64,000 nt of DNA from Myxococcus xanthus (GTDB lineage Bacteria > Myxococcota > Myxococcia > Myxococcales > Myxococcaceae): assembly GCF_900106535.1 (NCBI RefSeq), contig NZ_FNOH01000004.1, forward strand, positions 558,001 through 622,000. Reading direction: 5' to 3'. This document shows positions 13,034 to 22,503 of the stretch, in pieces. The translations under genes and the position numbers were made by a program. Below the pieces are notes generated by a model. That model was not told where the DNA came from, did no database searches, and worked only from the letters and a program-made list of their open reading frames with translations. Position 1 is the stretch's first letter. Every line of letters starts with the position of its first letter.

Positions 13034-13471
13034 TCAGTGAAGGGTGCGCTTCAGACGACTGAGCCGCTCATGCGTCCGCTTCTGCGCGGGAATCAACTCC
13101 ATCCTCACGAAGCGTCGATTCTCGCCATGCACCTGGTCCGCGTCGCGCTGGTAGTCGGCAAGGCCATGGTCCTCGCCCTCCTCCAGCGCCTGGATGGCGG
13201 CCTTCTCGCCCAGGACGTCCGCACCGCCTTGGACCAGCTTGGCGAAGGTGCCCCACATGCCAGAGCTCTCCACGGGCTCACCACCCATCTTCAGGATGCG
13301 CTCGCGAATCTCCTCGATCCGGTGCTCGTGGTCGTGCTGGCAATACTCCAGCGCGTCACGGGCCAGTCCGTCCGAGACGTGCCCGATCGCCTTGCGATAG
13401 GTCTCCACGGCGGAGATTTCGCCGCGCAGGAACGAGTTGAGCGTCTCGACGTCCTTGTTGGTGCTCGCCAT
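13034..13471 (-). CDS. DUF2383/PA2169-type ferritin-like protein
   Basis: 145 residues forming a predicted four-helix bundle. It opens with LNSFLRGEISAVETYRKAI and has CQHDHEHRIEEIRERI, patterns typical of the DUF2383 (PA2169) family, whose spaced Glu/His could bind two metals as in ferritins. Members are often linked to stress or stationary phase; the exact role is unknown. The start is chosen at the ATG with GGAGG six bases upstream; a longer reading has no signal. A strong intrinsic terminator follows. Confidence 0.75.
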   Translation of the reverse strand: MASTNKDVETLNSFLRGEISAVETYRKAIGHVSDGLARDALEYCQHDHEHRIEEIRERILKMGGEPVESSGMWGTFAKLVQGGADVLGEKAAIQALEEGEDHGLADYQRDADQVHGENRRFVRMELIPAQKRTHERLSRLKRTLH

Positions 13472-13681
13472 CGATGGCCTCCATGGGTGACGGGTGAATC
13501 CGGCTTGCCGCAAAAGGTGATGCCCGCTGCCGCATGGGCAACGAGGGCTCGCCTCCCCGCCCCCTTCCAAGGTCTGCGCGGACGTTCATCCGATGGCGCC
13601 GTGTCCCGCCCTCCAGACGGGCGGGCGAGCGGGCGTCCCCCGGGCTGGCCCAGCACCGCATACCGCATCAAGGAGGACGGG

Positions 13682-13711
13682 TTGACGCGCGCCTGAAACA
13701 GCCGCTAGCGT
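13682..13711 (+). promoter_or_regulatory. Predicted promoter of the cys operon
   Basis: TTGACG (13682-13687) and TAGCGT (13706-13711) are 18 bases apart, placing the transcription start near 13718, only about five bases before the first leader ATG. The layout copies that of the threonine leader promoter. Confidence 0.5.
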
Positions 13712-13722
13712 AGGTCTTCGCG

Positions 13723-13815
13723 ATGACGCACTCCCACACACCGACCGCCGCGCCGTTTGCCAGCCGCTGCTGTCCGTCGTGTGCCTGCTGTCGTCAGCCG
13801 GACCTGGGTTGTTGA
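13723..13815 (+). CDS. Cys-rich leader peptide 1 of the cys operon
   Basis: A 30-residue ORF with six Cys. Residues 16-23 read CCPSCACC, and Cys30 is last before the TGA. No Shine-Dalgarno is visible; the predicted transcription start is about five bases upstream, so translation may be leaderless-type. Just past the Cys codons, CCGGACC (13798-13804) can pair with GGCCCGG (13863-13869) of the following terminator except for one A-C mismatch. A ribosome stalled on Cys codons would leave this arm free to block the terminator; one that reaches the stop would cover it. The downstream genes make sulfide for cysteine, so a sensor of Cys-tRNA is the natural reading. The ORF and pairings are seen; the regulation is inferred. 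Confidence 0.8.
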   Translation: MTHSHTPTAAPFASRCCPSCACCRQPDLGC

Positions 13816-13861
13816 CGCGCATACGGGACGCCCTTCCAAGCCTCCCTCTTCGCGCTCTTCC

Positions 13862-13904
13862 CGGCCCGGTCTCCTGTCCCAGGAACCGGGCCGTTTTCGT
13901 TTCC
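13862..13904 (+). terminator. Attenuator terminator 1 of the cys operon
   Basis: CGGCCCGGT (13862-13870) pairs exactly with ACCGGGCCG (13885-13893), with an inner TCCT/AGGA pair, followed by TTTTCGTTTCC. It is a textbook intrinsic terminator placed after leader ORF 1 and before leader ORF 2, inside the operon leader. Confidence 0.9.
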
Positions 13905-13934
13905 TCCCCCAGCCCTGCACCACTCTCCTCACCC

Positions 13935-14087
13935 ATGACCTTCACCACCGACGCCCGTGTCCCCCGCTCTCCCGTGCTCCCCGCCGGGGGTGATGACGCC
14001 TGTGCCACGGGTGGCGCGTGCTGTCTGTGCCGTGCGTGTCCCGCGTGTCCGCCTGCAGGCGGGTGCCGAGCATCGAGAAGCGTGTAG
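13935..14087 (+). CDS. Cys-rich leader peptide 2 of the cys operon
   Basis: A 50-residue ORF beginning at an ATG 31 bases past the first terminator's T-tract, with seven Cys. Residues 29-38 read CCLCRACPAC, with further Cys at 23 and 44. It has no Shine-Dalgarno and no second promoter that I can see, so it would be used only by transcripts that read through terminator 1. Its last codons overlap the 5' arm of a long antiterminator hairpin, and its own terminator follows. The other two frames here have no similar Cys run, which argues that this frame is translated. The ATG is the best but not the only possible start. Confidence 0.75.
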   Translation: MTFTTDARVPRSPVLPAGGDDACATGGACCLCRACPACPPAGGCRASRSV

Positions 14088-14125
14088 CGCGTCCTTCTCG
14101 AACCTTCTTGCTCGTGCGGCCCGCC
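14058..14125 (+). promoter_or_regulatory. Antiterminator hairpin of attenuator 2
   Basis: Three stacked pairings can form: GGCGGG (14058-14063) with CCCGCC (14120-14125), CGAGCA (14067-14072) with TGCTCG (14109-14114), and TCGAGAAG (14073-14080) with CTTCTCGA (14094-14101). The outer pairing takes up the 5' arm of the second terminator. The 5' side begins just after the Cys-codon cluster and ends before the leader stop. A ribosome stalled on Cys codons allows it to form; one at the stop codon blocks it. Confidence 0.75.
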
Positions 14126-14151
14126 CTCGAAAGAGGCGGGCCTTTTCTTTT
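14118..14151 (+). terminator. Attenuator terminator 2 of the cys operon
   Basis: GGCCCGCC (14118-14125) pairs exactly with GGCGGGCC (14135-14142) around a GAAA loop closed by TC/GA, followed by TTTTCTTTT. It lies 13 bases before the cysH start codon, with the cysH Shine-Dalgarno TGGAG between. Confidence 0.92.
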
Positions 14152-14163
14152 CCTGGAGTCACC

Positions 14164-14886
14164 ATGTCGCCCCCGCAGCCCCAGGCCTCGGCCCTGCTCG
14201 CCGAAGCCGCTGAAGTGAAGGACGCCCCCGCGCAGGACCTCCTCGCCTGGACCGAGCGCCGCTTCGGTGCGCGCGCGGCCATCGCCTCCAGCTTCGGCGT
14301 GGAGGACATGGTCCTCATCGACCTGGCGCGCCAGCATGCGCCCAGCCTGCGCCTCTTCACGCTCGACACCGGACGCCTGCCCCCGGAGACGTACGAACTC
14401 ATGGAGGTGGTGCGTAAGCGCTACGGCGTCACCGTGGAGACGTACTTCCCCGAGCGCGCGCGCGTGGAGGCGTTGGAGTCCACGAACGGCTACTTCTCCT
14501 TCCGCCAGAGCCTAGAGGCACGCAAGGCGTGCTGCGCCATCCGCAAGGTGGAGCCCCTGTCGCGCGCGCTCGCGGGTCAACAGGCGTGGGTGACGGGATT
14601 GCGCCGTGAGCAGTCCGTCACCCGCACCGACGTGGCGACGTTAGAGGTGGACAGCGCGCATGGGCTGCTCAAGCTCAACCCGCTGGCCACGTGGAGCAGC
14701 CGGGACATCTGGGCCTACGTCCGGGCGAAGAGCGTGCCCTACAACGCGCTCCATGACCGTGGCTACCCGTCCATCGGCTGTGCGCCCTGCACGCGCGCGG
14801 TGAAACCCTACGAGGACGAGCGCGCGGGCCGCTGGTGGTGGGAGTCCGCGGAGAACCGCGAGTGCGGCCTCCACCCGGTCCGATGA
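14164..14886 (+). CDS. cysH: Assimilatory APS reductase, Fe-S type
   Basis: Reduces adenylyl sulfate to sulfite and AMP with thioredoxin. The 240-residue protein carries the four Cys of a [4Fe-4S] cluster as CC in KACCAIRK and CxxC in IGCAPC, plus the catalytic Cys in ECGLH near the C-terminus. The cluster ligands mark it as APS reductase rather than the cluster-free PAPS reductase of enterobacteria. SSFGVEDMVL and LFTLDTGRLPPETY fit the nucleotide-binding PP-loop-like fold. The start follows TGGAG by five bases, right after the second attenuator terminator. Its stop overlaps the next start (ATGA). First structural gene of the operon. Confidence 0.93.
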   Translation: MSPPQPQASALLAEAAEVKDAPAQDLLAWTERRFGARAAIASSFGVEDMVLIDLARQHAPSLRLFTLDTGRLPPETYELMEVVRKRYGVTVETYFPERARVEALESTNGYFSFRQSLEARKACCAIRKVEPLSRALAGQQAWVTGLRREQSVTRTDVATLEVDSAHGLLKLNPLATWSSRDIWAYVRAKSVPYNALHDRGYPSIGCAPCTRAVKPYEDERAGRWWWESAENRECGLHPVR

Positions 14887-15548
14887 AACACGCCATGCCT
14901 TCACACCCCCTGGATTATCCCGTGTGCCTTCGACTCGAGGGACGCTCCGTCCTGCTGGTGGGCGGCGGCGCCATCGCGGAGGGCCGTGCCCTCGCGGTGC
15001 TCGACGCCGGCGCGCGACTGCGTGTCATCGCGCCGGAGGCCACCGCCACACTGCGGCGGCTCGCAGCCGATGGGCGCCTGGAATGGCAGCCCCGTTCCTA
15101 CAAGGCCGGCGACGTGCGCGGCCATCACCTGGTGCTCGCGGCCACGGATGACGTGGCCGTGGGCCGGCAGGTGGCCACCGAAGCCCGGGACGTGGGCCTG
15201 TGGGTCAACACCGCGGACGAACCGGCGCTGTGTGACTTCACCCTGCCCTCCGTCGGCAGGCGCGGCCCCATCACCGTCGCCGTGTCCTCGGCGGGGCGGG
15301 CCCCAGCGCTCGCCAGCCACCTGCGCAAGACGCTCACCGCCCAGGTGACGCGACACCACATCTGGCTGGCGCGACTCAGCGGCTGGCTCCGCGAGCACCT
15401 GCCCCGAGGCGAAGGGCGCCAGCGGCTGCTGAAGCAGGTGGCGGTGGGAGACATCGGCGCGCTGCTGGAGCGAGGCGAGCGCAAGGCCGCCTGGGCTCGG
15501 CTCCGCACGGAGTTGGAGCACTCGAAGATACCTGGAGAGACACGATGA
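14883..15548 (+). CDS. cysG: Precorrin-2 dehydrogenase/sirohydrochlorin ferrochelatase
   Basis: 221 residues corresponding to the N-terminal half of CysG (Met8p-like). It oxidises precorrin-2 with NAD and inserts iron to complete siroheme, the cofactor of the sulfite reductase encoded six genes later. The Rossmann loop is VLLVGGGAIAEGRA near residue 20; NTADEPALCDFTLPS and VAVSSAGRAPALASHLR are family-typical. The methyltransferase half is a separate gene immediately downstream. The ATG overlaps the cysH stop by four bases, and its own stop overlaps the next ATG, so the three genes are translationally coupled. Confidence 0.9.
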   Translation: MKHAMPSHPLDYPVCLRLEGRSVLLVGGGAIAEGRALAVLDAGARLRVIAPEATATLRRLAADGRLEWQPRSYKAGDVRGHHLVLAATDDVAVGRQVATEARDVGLWVNTADEPALCDFTLPSVGRRGPITVAVSSAGRAPALASHLRKTLTAQVTRHHIWLARLSGWLREHLPRGEGRQRLLKQVAVGDIGALLERGERKAAWARLRTELEHSKIPGETR

Positions 15549-16345
15549 GAGAGCAGACGAGAGGCCGAGTGTTCCTGGTCGGCGCGGGGCCGGGAGACCC
15601 GGAGCTGTTGACCTTGCGCGCCGCGCGCGTGCTCCGGGAGGCGGACACCGTCGTTCATGACCGGTTGGTCCACCCTGGCGTGCTCGAGCATGCGCGGCCC
15701 CACGCCCGGCTCATCTACGTGGGCAAGGAGGGCGGCGGGGACTCCGTGAGCCAGGAGGAGATTCACGTCATCCTCATCGCCCAGGCGCTGCTGGGGCGCC
15801 GCGTGGTGCGGCTCAAGGGCGGTGACCCTTTCGTCTTCGGCCGCGGCGGCGAGGAAGCGCTCGCGCTGGAAGAGGCGGGCATCCCCTATGAAGTCGTGCC
15901 CGGCCTCACCGCGGGGACAGCCGTGCCCGCGGCGGCGGCCATTCCCGTCACGCACCGGGGTGTCTCCGGGGCGGTGACGTTCGCCACTGCATACCGAGGC
16001 GGCAGCGCGCCGGCCTGGGACTTCCTGGCGAAGGCCCAGACGTTGGTCCTCTACATGGCGGGCAGCCGGTTGGAGGAGACGGTGCGCGCGCTGGTCGGCG
16101 CGGGGCGTTCCGCGTCCACCCCGGCCGCCGTGGTGGAGGCGGGCACGTGGGCGCATCAACGGGTGGTGGAGGCTCCGCTGAGCCACATCGCCCAGGCGGC
16201 GACGCGTGACGCAATCGGCTCGCCGTCGCTGCTCATCGTGGGCGAGGTCGTCTCGCTGCGCGGGCGCCTGCCTTCGCTGGTAGCGCAAGGAACCTCGGAG
16301 CATGGACACGCGCCAGCGCGCGTGGCGGAGGGCGGTCATGAGTGA
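15545..16345 (+). CDS. cobA: Uroporphyrinogen-III C-methyltransferase
   Basis: SUMT adds two methyl groups from SAM to uroporphyrinogen III to give precorrin-2, the first step towards siroheme. Of 266 residues, [18 protein letters not shown] at the start, [18 protein letters not shown] near residue 85 and [20 protein letters not shown] near 112 are the standard tetrapyrrole methylase motifs. The start overlaps the previous stop as ATGA. With the preceding gene it supplies siroheme for CysI. The last ~25 residues are a loose tail that overlaps the start of cysD. Confidence 0.93.
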
Positions 16346-17255
16346 GCACACGTTCGCGCGGGCGTCCCACCTGTCGGAGCTGGAAGCGGAGAGCATCCAC
16401 ATCCTCCGGGAGACGGTGGCCGAGTTCGCCAACCCGGTGATGCTCTACAGCATCGGCAAGGACTCCCAGGTCCTGCTGCACCTGGCGCGCAAGGCCTTCC
16501 ACCCCGCGCCCCTGCCCTTCCCGCTGCTCCACGTGGACACCACCTGGAAGTTCCGGGACATGTATGCGTTCCGGGACGCCTTCGTGGCGCGCCACGGACT
16601 GCGCCTCATCATCCACCGGAACCAGCGCGCGCTGGCCGAGGGCATCAACCCCTTCGACCACGGCAGCCAGAAGTACACCCATGCGATGAAGACGCAGGCG
16701 CTGCTGGAGGCGCTGGCGGCGCATGGCTTCGACGCGGCCTTCGGTGGCGCGCGGCGCGACGAGGAGAAGTCCCGCGCCAAGGAGCGGGTGTTCTCCTTCC
16801 GGGACCGGCACGGACAGTGGGACCCGCGCCGCCAGCGGCCGGAGCTGTGGAACCTCTTCAACGGCCGCGTCGACGCGGGCGAGAGCATGCGCGTCTTCCC
16901 GCTGTCCAACTGGACGGAGCTGGACGTGTGGCACTACGTGCTGCGCGAGCGCATCCCCGTGGTGCCGCTCTACTTCGCCGCGGAGCGTCCTGTCATTGAC
17001 CGGGGCGGCACGCTGCTCATGGTGGATGACGAGCGCATGCGGCTTCGGCCCGGGGAGAAGCCCGAAATCCGGCGCGTGCGCTTCCGGACCCTGGGCTGCT
17101 ACCCGCTCAGCGGCGCCATCGAATCCTCCGCCACCACGGTGGAGACCGTCATCCACGAGATGGTGAACGCCCGCCAGTCCGAGCGGCAGGGCCGACTCAT
17201 CGACCACGACGAAGAGGGCTCCATGGAGCTCAAGAAGCGCGAGGGCTACTTCTAA
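16338..17255 (+). CDS. cysD: Sulfate adenylyltransferase subunit 2
   Basis: Small catalytic subunit of ATP sulfurylase, making APS from ATP and sulfate; works with the CysN GTPase. It has 305 residues as usual. The PP-loop is [21 protein letters not shown] near residue 35, and [19 protein letters not shown] and the C-terminal GREGYF-like ending (KREGYF) are family marks. The start is chosen at MSEHTF, with GGAGGGC a few bases upstream, inside the end of cobA; an earlier in-frame ATG lacks this. The stop overlaps the cysN start (TAATG). Confidence 0.95.
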
Positions 17256-18967
17256 TGGACACCGGCTTGCAGCAACTGCTCGACCAGCATGCCTCCCGGG
17301 AGCTGCTCCGGCTCGTCGTGGTCGGCTCCGTGGATGACGGGAAGTCCACCCTCATCGGCAGGCTCCTCTACGAGTGCGACGGGCTCTTCGAGGACCAGAT
17401 TTCCGCCGTGCGGAAGGCCAGCGCGAAGCGGACCGCCGCCGCCGTGTCCGTGCCCTCCGAGGTGCTGGTCCAAGGCCTGAAGGCCGCGGCCGGCGCGGAC
17501 GGGGAGGAACTGGACTTCTCCCTCTTCACCGACGGCCTGCGCGCCGAGCGTGAGCAGGGCATCACCATCGACGTTGCCTACCGCTACCTCAGCACCGCGC
17601 GGCGCAAGGTCATCGTCGCGGACACGCCGGGCCACATCCAGTACACGCGCAACATGGCCACCGGCGCCTCCACGGCGGACGCGGCGGTCATCCTGGTGGA
17701 CGCGCGACTGGGCGTGCTGCCGCAGACGCGCCGCCACGCGTACATCGCCTCGCTGCTGGGCATCCCCTACCTGGCCGTGGCGGTGAACAAGATGGACCTC
17801 ACGGGCTTCGACCGCGGCGCCTTCGAGCGCATCGGCGCCGAGCTGGTGGACTTCGCCCACGCGCTCGGCTTCGAGGGCGTGCGGCTCTTCCCCATCAGCG
17901 CCAGTCGCGGGGACAACATCACCCGGCCCAGCGCCCGCACGCCCTGGCATGAAGGCGGCAGCCTGCTCGCATGGCTGGAGTCCCTGCCCCACCAGCGCCG
18001 GCAGGACGACGCGCCCTTCCGCTTCCCCGTTCAGTACGTGCTCCGACCCCACCAGGACTACCGAGGGCTGGCGGGACAGATTGCCTCCGGCACCGTCCGC
18101 GTCGGGGATGAAATCCAGGTCCATCCCTCCGGGCGGCGCACGCGCGTGGCGGGCATCGACACCTTCGACGGACCGCTGGAGGAGGCCGCGTCCCCCGCGT
18201 CCGTCACGCTGCGACTCGCGGACGAAGTGGACGCCAGCCGAGGCGACGTGCTGGCCCATGTGGACCAGCCGCCGCTGTCTCTCCACCAGCTCGACGCGAT
18301 GCTCGTGTGGTTTGGAGAACAACCGCTGGACTGCTCGCGCCGCTACCTGGTGAAGCAGGCCTCGCGGACCGCGCCCGCGCACATCGAGCGGGTGCTGTGG
18401 CGCAAGGAACTGGCGGACCTGTCCGAGCAACCCGCCGAGTCCCTGTCGCTCAACGACATCGGCCGGGTGCGGGTGGTGTGCCGTCGGCCGCTGCTGACCG
18501 ACCCGTACCGCGACAACCGCCGCACGGGCGCCTTCATCGTCATCGACGCGCTCACGCACGACACGGTGGCCGCGGGCATGGTCCTGGGTCCCGCGGAGGA
18601 GTCGACGAAGAGCGACGTGGCCTCCTCGCTCGTCACGCAGCCCGAGCGGCGGGGACGGCTGGGGCAGCCCGGTGCCATTGTCCTGCTACCCGCCACGCCG
18701 GACGCGGGCTCACGCGCATTCCAGTTGGAGCGCCGGCTGTTCGACCTGGGCTGGCACGTCACCACCACCCCCGGTGATGTGGAGGTCGCGCTGGCGCTCG
18801 CGGCGGCGGGATTGGTGGCCCTGGTCCACACCGACACGCCCCAGACACGCCGGGTCCTGCGGGCGGAGGCCCGCGATGCCGGCGCCGCGTGGCTGGAGCT
18901 GGAAGCCACTGAAGACCTGCAGCAACACCTCGACCGGATCATCTCCCTCCGGGAGGCCGCACGATGA
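17255..18967 (+). CDS. cysN: Sulfate adenylyltransferase subunit 1 with degenerate APS-kinase tail
   Basis: GTPase subunit that drives APS formation by CysD. The G domain is complete: P-loop GSVDDGKST (residues 24-32), DTPGH, and NKMD. EF-Tu-like beta-barrel domains follow to about residue 445. The protein is 570 residues long: the last ~120 resemble an APS kinase (CysC) domain (FQLERRLFDLGWHVTTTPGD, like the kinase ERRLHELG...LDGD) but where the kinase has its GxSGxGKST loop this protein reads PATPDAGSR. The tail therefore should not phosphorylate APS, which fits an operon that uses APS reductase. It may be structural or regulatory. The start overlaps the cysD stop; the stop overlaps the next ATG. 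Confidence 0.92.
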   Translation: MDTGLQQLLDQHASRELLRLVVVGSVDDGKSTLIGRLLYECDGLFEDQISAVRKASAKRTAAAVSVPSEVLVQGLKAAAGADGEELDFSLFTDGLRAEREQGITIDVAYRYLSTARRKVIVADTPGHIQYTRNMATGASTADAAVILVDARLGVLPQTRRHAYIASLLGIPYLAVAVNKMDLTGFDRGAFERIGAELVDFAHALGFEGVRLFPISASRGDNITRPSARTPWHEGGSLLAWLESLPHQRRQDDAPFRFPVQYVLRPHQDYRGLAGQIASGTVRVGDEIQVHPSGRRTRVAGIDTFDGPLEEAASPASVTLRLADEVDASRGDVLAHVDQPPLSLHQLDAMLVWFGEQPLDCSRRYLVKQASRTAPAHIERVLWRKELADLSEQPAESLSLNDIGRVRVVCRRPLLTDPYRDNRRTGAFIVIDALTHDTVAAGMVLGPAEESTKSDVASSLVTQPERRGRLGQPGAIVLLPATPDAGSRAFQLERRLFDLGWHVTTTPGDVEVALALAAAGLVALVHTDTPQTRRVLRAEARDAGAAWLELEATEDLQQHLDRIISLREAAR

Positions 18968-20790
18968 GCGCATCCCCTGCCACCCATGCTCCCCCGTTCA
19001 TCAACGCTCTGCTGGGTGAGAACAAGAGTGCCCTGCTGCTCAAGCTCGTGGAGGAGATGGACGCCTCCGCCCTGCACTGGCTGAGCGGCTACACGGCGGG
19101 ACTGGCCGTCCGCGCCCCCCAGACCACCGTTGTCCCCGTGACGCCCGTACCCGTGGCCGCCCCCGCCGGTCACTTCACCATCATCTACGGGACGCAGACG
19201 GGTAACAGCCGCCTCCTGGCCGAGCGCCTCAAGCACCAGGTGGAGTCCGCCGGGCTCGCCACGCGGCTGTTCCGGGCCAGCGACTATCCGGTGCGGGAGC
19301 TGGCCAAGGAGAAGCTGCTCTGCGTGGTCATCAGCACCCAGGGAGATGGCGACCCGCCGGACGACGCACGCGGTTTCAGTGAGTTCATCCTCGGCAAGCG
19401 CGCGCCTCGCATGGAGGGGCTGCGCTACGCCGTGCTGGGGCTGGGAGACTCCAGCTACCCGCGCTTCTGCGAGGTGGGCCGGCGGCTCGACGCCCGCTTC
19501 GCGGAGTTGGGCGCCAGCCGGCTGTTGGAGCGTGCCGATTGCGATGTGGACTTCGAGCCCGTGGCCAAGGGTTGGCTCGACCAGGCCTACACCCTGGCGC
19601 GCGAAGCACTGACTCCGCAGGCGACGGTGACGGCCACGGTCGTGCCGCTGCGGGAGCCGCACGCCACGCCCGCGTTCACCAAGGAAGCGCCCTACACGGC
19701 GGAGGTGCTGCTCAATCAGCGCATCACTGCACGCGGCGCGCTCAAGGACGTGCGGCACCTGGAGCTGTCGCTCGCGGGCTCCGGGCTGGAATACGCCCCC
19801 GGCGACGCGCTGGGCGTGTGGCCCCACAATCCGCCGGAGCTGGTGGCGTCCTTCCTGTCCGAGCTGCGCCTCGACGGAGAAGCGGCGGTCACCCGAGAGG
19901 GCCGCACGCTCCCGCTGGCGCGCTGGCTGAGTGACGAGTTGGAAATCACCAGGCTCAACCGCCCCTTCCTGGAGCGACAAGCCACGCTGTCCGGCAGCGC
20001 GGCGCTGCACGAAGTGCTCGAACCGGGCCGCACCGAGGCCTTCCGCGCACTGCTGGCGGGGCATCAGGTCATCGACGTACTCCGCGCCCACAAGGCCACC
20101 TGGGACGCCACGGAGCTGGTCCAGTCCCTGCGCCGGCTGACGCCCCGGTTGTACTCGATTGCCTCCAGCCCCAAGCGCGTGGGTGAAGAGGCGCACCTCA
20201 CGGTGGCGGTGGTGGACTACACGGTGTTCGACCTGCGGCACTTCGGCGCGGCGTCGTACCACCTGGCCACGCGCACGGCCGGCACCGACACGGTCCGCAT
20301 CTTCATCGAGCCGAACGAACGCTTCCGGCTGCCGCAGGACGGCGACAAGGACGTGCTGATGATTGGCCCTGGCACCGGCGTGGCGCCCTTCCGGGCCTTC
20401 GTCCAGGAGCGCGCGGAGACCGGAGCGAAGGGCCGCAACTGGCTCTTCTTCGGTGAGCAACACTTCCGCACCCAGTTCCTCTACCAGACGGAGTGGCAGG
20501 AGGCCCTGAAGAAGCAGACGCTGCACCGGCTGTCACTCGCCTTCTCGCGGGACCGCGCTCAGAAGGTCTACGTGCAGCACCGGCTGCGTGAGTCCGGACG
20601 TGACGTCTACGAATGGCTCGAAGGAGGCGCCCACCTCTACGTGTGCGGCGACGCCCAGCGCATGGCCCCGGATGTCCACGAGGCACTGGTGGACGTCGTC
20701 TCCACCCACGGCGGCAAGAGCCGCGAGGACGCGCACGCCTGGCTCGAATCCCTGCGCGAGCAGCGGCGCTACCTGCGCGACGTCTACTGA
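18964..20790 (+). CDS. cysJ: NADPH-sulfite reductase flavoprotein
   Basis: Passes electrons from NADPH through FAD and FMN to the sulfite reductase hemoprotein. It has 608 residues: an N-terminal ~65-residue extension, a flavodoxin domain (IIYGTQTGNSRLLAERL near residue 75, STQGDGDPPDDA), an FAD-binding region (RLYSIASSPKR near residue 395), and NADPH binding (IGPGTGVAPFRAFVQER, FFGEQHFRTQFLYQ). It ends in RYLRDVY, as CysJ proteins do. The start overlaps the cysN stop as ATGA. Paired with cysI 24 bases downstream. Confidence 0.94.
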   Translation: MSASPATHAPPFINALLGENKSALLLKLVEEMDASALHWLSGYTAGLAVRAPQTTVVPVTPVPVAAPAGHFTIIYGTQTGNSRLLAERLKHQVESAGLATRLFRASDYPVRELAKEKLLCVVISTQGDGDPPDDARGFSEFILGKRAPRMEGLRYAVLGLGDSSYPRFCEVGRRLDARFAELGASRLLERADCDVDFEPVAKGWLDQAYTLAREALTPQATVTATVVPLREPHATPAFTKEAPYTAEVLLNQRITARGALKDVRHLELSLAGSGLEYAPGDALGVWPHNPPELVASFLSELRLDGEAAVTREGRTLPLARWLSDELEITRLNRPFLERQATLSGSAALHEVLEPGRTEAFRALLAGHQVIDVLRAHKATWDATELVQSLRRLTPRLYSIASSPKRVGEEAHLTVAVVDYTVFDLRHFGAASYHLATRTAGTDTVRIFIEPNERFRLPQDGDKDVLMIGPGTGVAPFRAFVQERAETGAKGRNWLFFGEQHFRTQFLYQTEWQEALKKQTLHRLSLAFSRDRAQKVYVQHRLRESGRDVYEWLEGGAHLYVCGDAQRMAPDVHEALVDVVSTHGGKSREDAHAWLESLREQRRYLRDVY

Positions 20791-20814: not shown

Positions 20815-22503
20815 ATGAGCCACCAGCCCAAGCCTCTCTCCGAAGTGGAGCACATCAAGACCCAGAGCCGCCTGCTCCGGGGAAGTCTGGCGGAGAGCCT
20901 GGAGGACCCGGTGACGGGCGGCCTCGCCACGCCGGACACCAACCTCATCAAGTTCCACGGCAGCTATCAGCAGGACGACCGCGACGTGCGCGAGGAGCGG
21001 CGTCAGCAGAAGCTGGAGCCCGACTACAGCTTCATGCTCCGCACCCGCCTGCCTGGAGGCGTGTGCACACCGGCCCAGTGGCTGGTGATGGACGCCCTGG
21101 CGCGCGAGCACGCCAACCACACGCTGCGCATCACCACGCGGCAGGCCTTTCAGTTACACGGCGTCATCAAGGATGACCTCCGGCCCACCATCGCCCGCAT
21201 CAACGAAGCGATGATGGACACGCTGGCCGCCTGCGGCGACGTGAACCGCAACGTGCTGTGCAACCCCAATCCGGTGGACTCGCGCGTCCACGAGACGGTG
21301 TACCAGTGGGCGGTGCGCATCTCCGAGCACCTGCTGCCGAAGACGCGCGCCTACTACGAAGTCTGGCTGGGGAAGGAGAAGGTGGCCGGCGGTGAGGACG
21401 AGCCCATCTACGGCGCCACGTACCTGCCCCGGAAGTTCAAGGCCGCCGTGGCGGTGCCGCCCCTCAACGACGTGGATGTCTTCGCGCAGGACCTGGGCTT
21501 CATCGCCATCATCGAAGGCGACGCGCTCGTGGGCTTCAACGTCTCCGTGGGCGGCGGCATGGGCGCCACGCATGGTGACGCGGCCACCTATCCCCGGCTG
21601 GCGGACGTCGTCGGCTTCATCCCGCCGGAGCAGACGCTCGCCGTCGCCGAGGAGGTGGTGAAGATTCACCGCGACTTCGGGGACCGCACCAACCGCAAGC
21701 ACGCGCGCCTGAAGTACGTCCTGGAGGAGCGCGGCGTTCCCTGGTTCACGGCAGAGCTGGAGAAGCGGCTCGGCTTCCCGCTCCAGCCAGCGCGCCCCTT
21801 CGCTTTCGAGCACAACGGAGACCGCTTCGGGTGGACAGAGGGCCATGACGGCCGGTGGCATCTGACGTTGCACCTGGACAGCGGCCGCGTGGCGGACCGG
21901 CCCGGCGCGCCGCACTTGACGGGCCTGCGGGAGATTGCGCGCATCCACACCGGGGACTTCCGGCTCACGGCGAACCAGAACCTCGTCATCGCAGGTGTGA
22001 CGCCCGAGGCTCGCGACGCCATCGGCGCGCTGGTGACGGCGCACGCGCTGGACAGCTTCCGCAGCGCCAGCCCGGTGCGTCGCAACGCGCTGGCGTGCGT
22101 GGCGCTGCCGACGTGCGGGCTCGCCATGGCGGAGGCGGAGCGCTACCTGCCTACCTTCGTGGGACGGCTGGAGGACCGGCTGCGGGCGCATGGCCTGCAG
22201 GACGCCAACCTGCTGCTCCGCATCACCGGGTGCCCCAACGGCTGCGCGAGGCCGTACCTGGCGGAGGTGGGACTCGTGGGCAAGGCGCCGGGCCGCTACA
22301 ACCTGCACCTGGGCGGAGATGCGCGAGGCCAGCGCCTCAGTCACCTCTACAGGGAGAACATCGACGAGGACGCCATCCTCGCCGCGCTGGAGCCATTGTT
22401 CGAAGGCTACGCACGCGAACGTCAGCCCGGTGAAGGCTTTGGCGACTTCGTGGTGCGCGCTGGCCACGTCCCCAGCCCAGCCGTTCAGCCTCGGCCGTCC
22501 TGA
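20815..22503 (+). CDS. cysI: Sulfite reductase (NADPH) hemoprotein
   Basis: Six-electron reduction of sulfite to sulfide, with siroheme and a [4Fe-4S] cluster. The 562 residues match CysI. The cluster and siroheme ligands lie in [15 protein letters not shown] and [15 protein letters not shown] towards the C-terminus; [13 protein letters not shown] near residue 105 is the family signature of the siroheme-binding half. It ends the operon: the next gene, 24 bases on, is on the other strand. No sulfate transporter or cysteine synthase gene lies in the window, so these must be elsewhere. The start has no strong Shine-Dalgarno. Confidence 0.95.

Follow-up and report, generated by a model that had tools for sequence, protein, structure and literature searches.

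Two probable cysteine attenuators in series before the sulfate assimilation operon of a Myxococcus genome

The sulfate assimilation operon of this Myxococcus genome is most probably controlled by two ribosome-mediated transcription attenuators in series, both of which would read charged Cys-tRNA. The window, which is the whole stretch of 64,000 nucleotides that was analysed (G000:C4:558001-622000), lies within a 9.26 Mb genome. The nearest named relatives of its CysH are found in Myxococcus sp. CA023 (99%) and M. xanthus AM003 (98%). The gap before cysH contains, in order, leader 1, terminator 1, leader 2 and terminator 2 (Table 1). Since close relatives keep both reading frames, a shortage of cysteine is probably checked at two points of a single transcript. 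The reading frames, the stems, their conservation, the family of related elements and the association with genes were computed. The upstream neighbour is divergent, and thus the terminators cannot end the transcript of that gene. A scan of the region with Rfam 15 gave no family at its gathering score; the three matches reached 17-18 bits against gathering scores of 45-70.

Table 1. Positions of the leader region, the operon and the upstream neighbour in the window
Feature	Position	Strand	Remarks
DUF2383 gene, upstream neighbour, divergent	13034-13471	minus	Pfam
Putative promoter (by eye)	13682..13711	+	-35 TTGACG (13682-13687), -10-like TAGCGT (13706-13711), 18 nt spacer
Leader peptide 1 ORF	ATG 13723 to stop 13815	+	MTHSHTPTAAPFASRCCPSCACCRQPDLGC; 30 codons, 6 Cys; counterpart in 30/30 tandem genomes
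Conserved 21-nt element around leader-1 stop	13800..13820	+	GGNCCTGGGYTGTTGAMGCGC; first 12 nt are the proximal arm of antiterminator 1
Terminator 1	13862..13901	+	stem 13862-13893, T-tract 13894-13901, tail TTTTCGTTT
Leader 2 start region	13905..13934	+	unstructured, pyrimidine-rich, without Shine-Dalgarno sequence
Leader peptide 2 ORF	ATG 13935 to stop 14087	+	MTFTTDARVPRSPVLPAGGDDACATGGACCLCRACPACPPAGGCRASRSV; 50 codons, 7 Cys; in-frame ATG in 30/30
1:2 hairpin	14049..14062	+	CCGCC (14049-14053) with GGCGG (14058-14062)
2:3 antiterminator	14058..14125	+	GGCGGG (14058-14063) with CCCGCC in segment 3; CGAGC (14067-14071) with GCTCG (14110-14114)
2:3 antiterminator, inner stem	14073-14080 with 14094-14101	+	
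Terminator 2	14118..14151	+	stem 14118-14142, T-tract 14143-14151, tail TTTTCTTTT
cysH, APS/PAPS reductase, first gene of the operon	14164..14886	+	Pfam PF01507; NCBIfam NF002537, TIGR02055, TIGR00434 above cut-off
Sirohaem-synthase-like gene	14835-15548	+	Pfam; one of two sirohaem-synthesis genes (14835..16345)
Tetrapyrrole methylase, second sirohaem-synthesis gene	15545-16345	+	Pfam
cysD	16302-17255	+	NCBIfam TIGR02039 above cut-off
cysN	17255-18967	+	NCBIfam TIGR02034 above cut-off
cysJ	18964-20790	+	NCBIfam TIGR01931 above cut-off
cysI	20815-22503	+	NCBIfam TIGR02041 above cut-off

Both Cys-rich leader ORFs were found before cysH with the lengths and Cys counts that a preliminary description of the region had given. 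Two ORFs with at least 6 Cys in 16 codons are present in 13600-14163, where leader 2 was taken inside a longer GTG-started frame for this count. Among 2000 dinucleotide shuffles, one contained one such ORF and none contained two. Seven ORFs of up to 110 residues on both strands of the whole window reach 5 Cys in 16 codons, and the three that reach 6 are the two leaders and one ORF on the minus strand. The share of TGT among Cys codons is 8/13 in the leaders, and a set of 40 coding-like ORFs from the window gives 46/182 (Fisher p 0.009).

A CysH match at E <= 1e-30 was obtained in 51 of 96 genomes of the family, and the upstream regions of 50 of them were examined (G044 was left out). The preliminary description had set conservation among relatives as its test, and the arrangement passed it. 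Two Cys-rich leaders precede cysH in 30 of the 50 genomes, some of which are close relatives of one another: 27 of 27 in the genus, 2 of 2 in g5 and 1 of 1 in g20. A single leader was found in G004 and G007 (g3). In G048 a single Cys leader lies before a reductase-like gene, which in turn lies before cysH. A further 16 genomes gave no started frame that reaches 4 Cys in 16 codons within 700 nt before the cysH match. G005 has only 75 nt upstream and stands outside the call of with or without leader. The tandem label requires three changes on the CysH tree. A record labelled Comamonas sp. KCTC 72670 (L005) was found to carry a Myxococcus-type cysH with both leaders, and its label looks wrong.

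One promoter had been proposed before the two leaders. Promoter-like hexamers are indeed visible by eye, whereas a consensus scanner run on the region reported no promoter and neither terminator. TTGAC occurs 125-154 nt upstream of the leader-1 stop in 26 of the 30 tandem genomes; for G054, G069 and G062 the script picked up a TTGAC that is internal, and for G080 it gave no TTGAC. Leader 1 of the window begins 11 nt past the -10-like hexamer. This distance is about 8-12 nt in most genomes as judged by eye; the exceptions are G064 and G074, which have a longer gap or a second hexamer before leader 1. Leader 1 starts so near to the -10-like hexamer that the mRNA would be leaderless or near-leaderless. 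The single promoter-like site suggests a single transcript for both leaders. A Shine-Dalgarno motif upstream of leader 2 is absent in 30 of 30 genomes, and its ATG is the first one past the leader-1 stop in 30 of 30, where shuffling gives 0.62 expected per genome. It lies 101-119 nt downstream of that stop in the 30 genomes. The 50 nt around it have a mean folding energy of -3.4 kcal/mol vs -16.8 (sd 4.7) for 1000 random stretches of the window, and the pyrimidine content upstream is 76%. Leader 2 may therefore use an S1-type internal start.

The second gate is the more uniform across the 30 genomes. Terminator 2 with its T-tract lies directly before cysH as first described, and its stem was calculated at -19.8 kcal/mol. 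The stretch 14110-14160 alone gave a z of -2.1, with 7 of 200 shuffles as good. Because a simple scanner found neither terminator, hairpins were scored by a script and compared with a random-window background. This background consisted of 395 random 118-nt stretches of the window (99th percentile 31.3, maximum 31.9). The scores of terminator 1 (36.4) and terminator 2 (33.0) are higher than those of all 395 stretches. Terminator 2 reaches or exceeds the random 99th percentile in all 30 genomes, the lowest score being equal to it. Antiterminator 2 was recovered by folding at the place claimed for it. The 1:2, 2:3 and 3:4 pairings are all predicted in 30 of 30 genomes, with the 1:2 hairpin of G077 in a shifted register. 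The 2:3 duplex is equalled by 0 to 22 of 300 shuffles per genome, and a shuffled upstream stretch attains the observed 2:3 pairing in 0.9%. The RNA up to segment 3 was folded with a ribosome at different places. The antiterminator core appears in 28/30 with the ribosome on the last Cys before segment 2, in 30/30 with it on the second-last Cys and in 0/30 with it at the leader-2 stop codon. The core forms in 25/30 without a ribosome, and the 1:2 hairpin wins in only 3/30.

Terminator 1 and its T-tract were likewise confirmed by folding at the place where they had been described. The stem has an energy of -25 to -26 kcal/mol with a z of -6.2, and 0 of 200 shuffles were as good. Its 5' arm had been proposed to pair with CCGGACC just after the Cys codons of leader 1. 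This pairing exists, and the arm proved to be wider (GGACC-U-GGGUUG, 13800-13811). In the 16 genomes with a strong arm, the end of leader 1 (GGRCC-U-GGG...) pairs with the terminator-1 arm in 16/16 when the ribosome is on the Cys codons, whereas antiterminator 1 forms in 0/16 when it is at the leader-1 stop codon. Antiterminator 1 still forms in 16/16 without a ribosome. The shuffle control of the stalled pairing is only moderate, with 7.0% of shuffles attaining it. The arms of gate 1 showed little beyond shuffles in duplex energy, a less clear test than the folding with a placed ribosome, and folding at full length favours the terminator on average. Folding of the Cys region of leader 1 onto the stop region was also considered. 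It gave 12 double-change cells vs 4.1 in shuffles and was not relied on because its mean folding z over 27 genomes is only -0.62. Among the 30 genomes, terminator 1 is above the random 99th percentile in 14 and just below it in G067. G054 and G069 have the stem with the T-tract set off from it, an arrangement that the hairpin script misses. Terminator 1 is weak in 11 genomes of the genus, which form a single clade on the CysH tree, and in both g5 genomes. In the window gate 1 is probable; in part of the genus it is no more than a candidate.

This unevenness bears on a reading in which only gate 2 works, and leader 1 with hairpin 1 is a decaying older copy or serves another purpose, for example the loading of ribosomes on nascent RNA. 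Terminator 2 nowhere falls below the random 99th percentile, terminator 1 is weak in a whole clade, and gate 1 of the window offers a covariance model of gate 2 little besides its terminator (9.1 bits). However, leader 1 retains its core Cys columns, and the 21-nt element around its stop is present as a single copy in every one of the 27 genus genomes and in 0 of 69 other genomes of the family. Since the element is kept in 27/27, the weak clade included, leader 1 probably still does something even where terminator 1 is weak. The weak clade also retains hairpin 1 through other sequences (GGCCC/GGGTC, GACCC/GGGTC and GCGC/GCGC), and the difference between stalled and stop-codon ribosome is present in every genome with a strong terminator-1 arm. 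A single working gate is therefore considered unlikely, and two working gates are preferred.

The proposed mechanism is as follows. One promoter would give a near-leaderless mRNA, on which the polymerase would have two gates to clear, leader 1 with terminator 1 and then leader 2 with terminator 2. When Cys-tRNA is plentiful, the ribosome would reach the stop codon and block the proximal arm of the antiterminator, so that the terminator would form and end transcription. Under a shortage of Cys-tRNA, the ribosome would stall on the Cys codons and the proximal arm would pair with the 5' arm of the terminator. This pairing would precede the synthesis of the terminator 3' arm, and the polymerase would pass. 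Leader 2 would be translated from its internal, unstructured start without a Shine-Dalgarno sequence. We infer the transcription start, translation, stalling, termination in the cell and the effect of two gates against one. A switch at equilibrium with the whole terminator present was tried and rejected, as no switch was seen on folding and both gates favour the terminator. With segment 4 present, equilibrium folding prefers terminator 2 over the 2:3 pairing in 28 to 30 of the 30 genomes in each of four states, stalled included. Because the terminators are favoured at equilibrium at full length, the switch must be kinetic, with the order of transcription events deciding. Besides, the antiterminators form without a ribosome and the 1:2 hairpin rarely wins, and hence an untranslated leader would not obviously terminate. 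The earlier proposal of amino-acid attenuation logic, applied to cysteine and doubled, is supported by conservation, by the anatomy of gate 2 in 30/30 and by related elements before cysteine genes. It is qualified by terminator 1 being strong in 14/30, by antiterminator 1 being moderately above shuffles and by leader 2 lacking a Shine-Dalgarno sequence in 30/30.

The trp, his and leu attenuators combine a leader ORF carrying codons of the product, an intrinsic terminator and a mutually exclusive antiterminator. The window shares this anatomy. It has short leader ORFs rich in product codons, intrinsic terminators between the leader and the first gene that both exceed the random stretches, and antiterminators whose pairing, before the terminator 3' arm is made, is predicted to be allowed by a stalled ribosome and prevented by one at the stop codon. 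A 1:2 hairpin is possible in gate 2. It differs in its cysteine codons, in having two complete units in series, in the near-leaderless leader 1 and in the Shine-Dalgarno-less leader 2. The comparison of anatomy suggests that the region does what a trp-type attenuator does, two times over. Canestrari et al. reportedly treated the leaderless poly-Cys ORFs of mycobacteria in 2020.

Control of translation, or Rho-dependent control, instead of intrinsic termination has been proposed for mycobacterial ORFs of this kind. The parts of the reports consulted describe translational control by leaderless poly-Cys ORFs (PMC9031893, PMC13236596, PMC9094748). As far as these parts and that of PMC1262725 go, the mycobacterial and actinobacterial leaders resemble the present ones in being poly-Cys leaders, leaderless in mycobacteria, before sulfur or cysteine genes. 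Leader 1 resembles the mycobacterial ORFs in its poly-Cys and seemingly near-leaderless form (PMC9031893, in its consulted part), and part of the genus is without a good T-tract at gate 1. On the other hand, two hairpins with T-tracts are present in the window and terminator 2 is present in 30/30, whereas the consulted part of PMC1262725 reports actinobacterial Cys leaders without evident terminators. Such control in place of intrinsic termination is thus very improbable here.

Tandem attenuators have been described in Salmonella mgtCBR, where they respond to ATP and proline; the text consulted stresses the different signals (PMC3641672). To the extent of that text, the anatomy of the two systems corresponds, in that a leader region contains a pair of short ORFs and each ORF has a switch of its own, here a predicted one. 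They differ in that both leaders here carry Cys codons, so that two switches reading different signals were not found, and in that the units are homologous in one relative. The uORFC-8-2 motif before cysS of Rhodobacterales is a predicted cysteine-codon attenuator with an intrinsic terminator, according to the portion of PMC8632094 that was seen. As described there, it is single and alphaproteobacterial, has two Cys codons and precedes a tRNA synthetase gene, unlike the present element. Searches in open-access literature gave no paper that deals with tandem attenuators reading one amino acid, nor any that deals with cysteine attenuation in myxobacteria. A tandem form in a myxobacterium had been presented, with reserve, as undescribed. 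Since the Rhodobacterales attenuator had already been predicted (PMC8632094, same portion), the new part is the doubling and the setting rather than the cysteine.

The leaders appear to be read for their codons. Codon alignments comprised 29 rows for leader 1 (G080 was left out) and 30 rows for leader 2. Frame, start codon and core Cys codons are kept among relatives. Three Cys columns per leader are invariant in all aligned rows. Swaps between TGT and TGC occur in one of these columns in leader 1 and in two of them in leader 2. The remaining Cys columns at times hold Arg, Phe or another residue, and the majority of the alignment columns drift. Nonsynonymous against synonymous codon pairs number 3988 to 828 in leader 1 and 9356 to 2579 in leader 2. 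Because the core Cys columns are kept while other columns change residue, the leaders look selected for codons rather than for peptides. A role of the Cys-rich peptides in trans, such as the binding of a metal or of a thiol-reactive signal, would accord with the clustering of their Cys residues in CC, CxC and CxxC spacing. However, the drift outside the core Cys columns speaks against it. The conserved C-terminus of leader 2 (GG.RA..S) coincides with the RNA arms of the antiterminator, and leader 2 of G080 (L063, 92-233 nt before the cysH match) contains 12 consecutive Cys codons. Peptides acting in trans are accordingly a highly improbable explanation. Plain terminators or insulators with Cys-rich frames arising by chance, an idea that the commonness of GC-rich hairpins in this genome (random 99th percentile score 31.3) might suggest, can practically be dismissed, as the neighbouring gene is divergent and the Cys frames go beyond shuffles and are found again in 30 genomes.

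Related elements were sought with a covariance model of gate 2 built from 30 sequences, which was searched against 195 genomes of the phylum. Matches at E <= 1e-4 number 41. For 40 of them the gene that follows is cysH or cysK, and for the remaining one it is nitrite/sulfite-reductase-like. Thirty of the matches built the model and 11 had no part in it; ten of these added matches precede cysH or cysK and one the reductase-like gene. They comprise gate 1 of G080 (E 8.7e-19), the single gates before cysH in G004 and G007, seven single gates that precede a second cysK and have MSLPLTTTGAQCCCCCRVACACCLAGPEHWESA among their leaders, and MRTVSATSFDHTAACCCCACCCCRPAGRAPGDFA before a NirA/sulfite-reductase-like gene in G155, which belongs to another family of the order. 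The name cysK comes from NCBIfam for one locus and from identity for the other six, and the matches of the G155 gene are below curated cut-offs. A weaker match in G048 (27.2 bits) precedes a similar reductase-like gene that overlaps cysH downstream. As a control, 30 cysK loci had the leader in 7, which are a near-identical second copy (89-100%), and lacked it in the 23 others (81-87%). Among 30 reductase-like loci the leader is present in 2 and absent in 28. Another 13 matches fall between E 1e-4 and 0.05. Those in G002, G006, G032, G033 and G034 lie just before cysH without a Cys leader, that is, the terminator was matched. Those in G011, G093, G101 and G182 (L107-L110) have no Cys frame or only a 4-in-16 one, and the remaining ones are in G042, G095, G156 and G159.

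The preliminary description had named covariation of the stem arms as a check, and it was seen for one of the pairings. Among the 30 genomes no covariation was found in the gate-2 cores, where it cannot be judged because the cores hardly vary, each serving two pairings. In the wider family (42 loci), changes on both sides affect 8 pairs and 30 cells of the antiterminator (shuffled mean 9.7 cells, 0/500 as high), and 91.1% of its cells are paired vs 33-58% in slid versions; the alignment was fitted to the covariance model and leans towards pairing and covariation. The 1:2 hairpin showed no covariation beyond shuffles over the 42 loci.

The origin of the tandem is indicated by G080. Its two units are alike at 100/119 positions (score 57.0; shuffles reach at most 19.5), and 104/120 positions agree between its gate 1 and gate 2 of the window. 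Units 1 and 2 of the window are no closer to each other than shuffles (score 20.5, shuffled maximum 21.0). Because one relative has two recognisably homologous units, duplication is pointed to. On the sequences at hand, the simplest reading would be that the tandem arose by duplication and that unit 1 then diverged in the genus; an independent duplication in G080 is still conceivable.

Several further arrangements were noticed before cysH. L050, L042 and L047 (G003, G006 and G002) still have a promoter-like site, a terminator and a short start of the form ATGACGCTCC or ATGAAGCTCC, but no longer the Cys codons, as if the sensor had decayed and the terminator had stayed. At L057 and L061 (G004 and G007), a second GC-rich hairpin followed by Ts, without a Cys leader, was seen by eye between the single gate and cysH. 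It is perhaps the remains of a second unit. Palindromes like TCCGTTATAGCGGA, or repeats of the CATATTGGC type, lie near the cysH promoter in G040, G042 and G043 and in G002, G003, G004, G006, G007 and G033, genomes that have no Cys leader or one. They are perhaps the site of a regulator supplementing or replacing attenuation. Outside this family, 5/5 Hymenobacter loci (L023-L027, about 1476-1790) carry a SAM riboswitch aptamer (RF00162, 73-77 bits) before a cysH-like gene. A GTG-started Cys-rich ORF ending CCC or CCCC begins about 10 bases after the aptamer in 5/5. No clear terminator was found after this ORF, the best hairpin-plus-T score being 16-29. A riboswitch and a cysteine leader in series would be worth a separate study.

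The duplicated attenuator could be an AND gate, in which units of common origin read the same charged tRNA successively on one RNA and leader 2 is started internally, without a Shine-Dalgarno sequence, on a stretch that stays unstructured. We see the chances of this proposal as evenly balanced. If it is true, readthrough would be approximately the product of the two gates; compared with a single attenuator, the basal level would be lower and the response steeper. A natural test of what a second gate for the same signal brings is provided by genomes that have two strong gates, a weakened first gate, one gate or none. Also open to dissection is the putative internal start site of leader 2, which lacks a Shine-Dalgarno sequence. 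An RNA element matching no Rfam family would link cysteine supply to sulfate reduction in myxobacteria.
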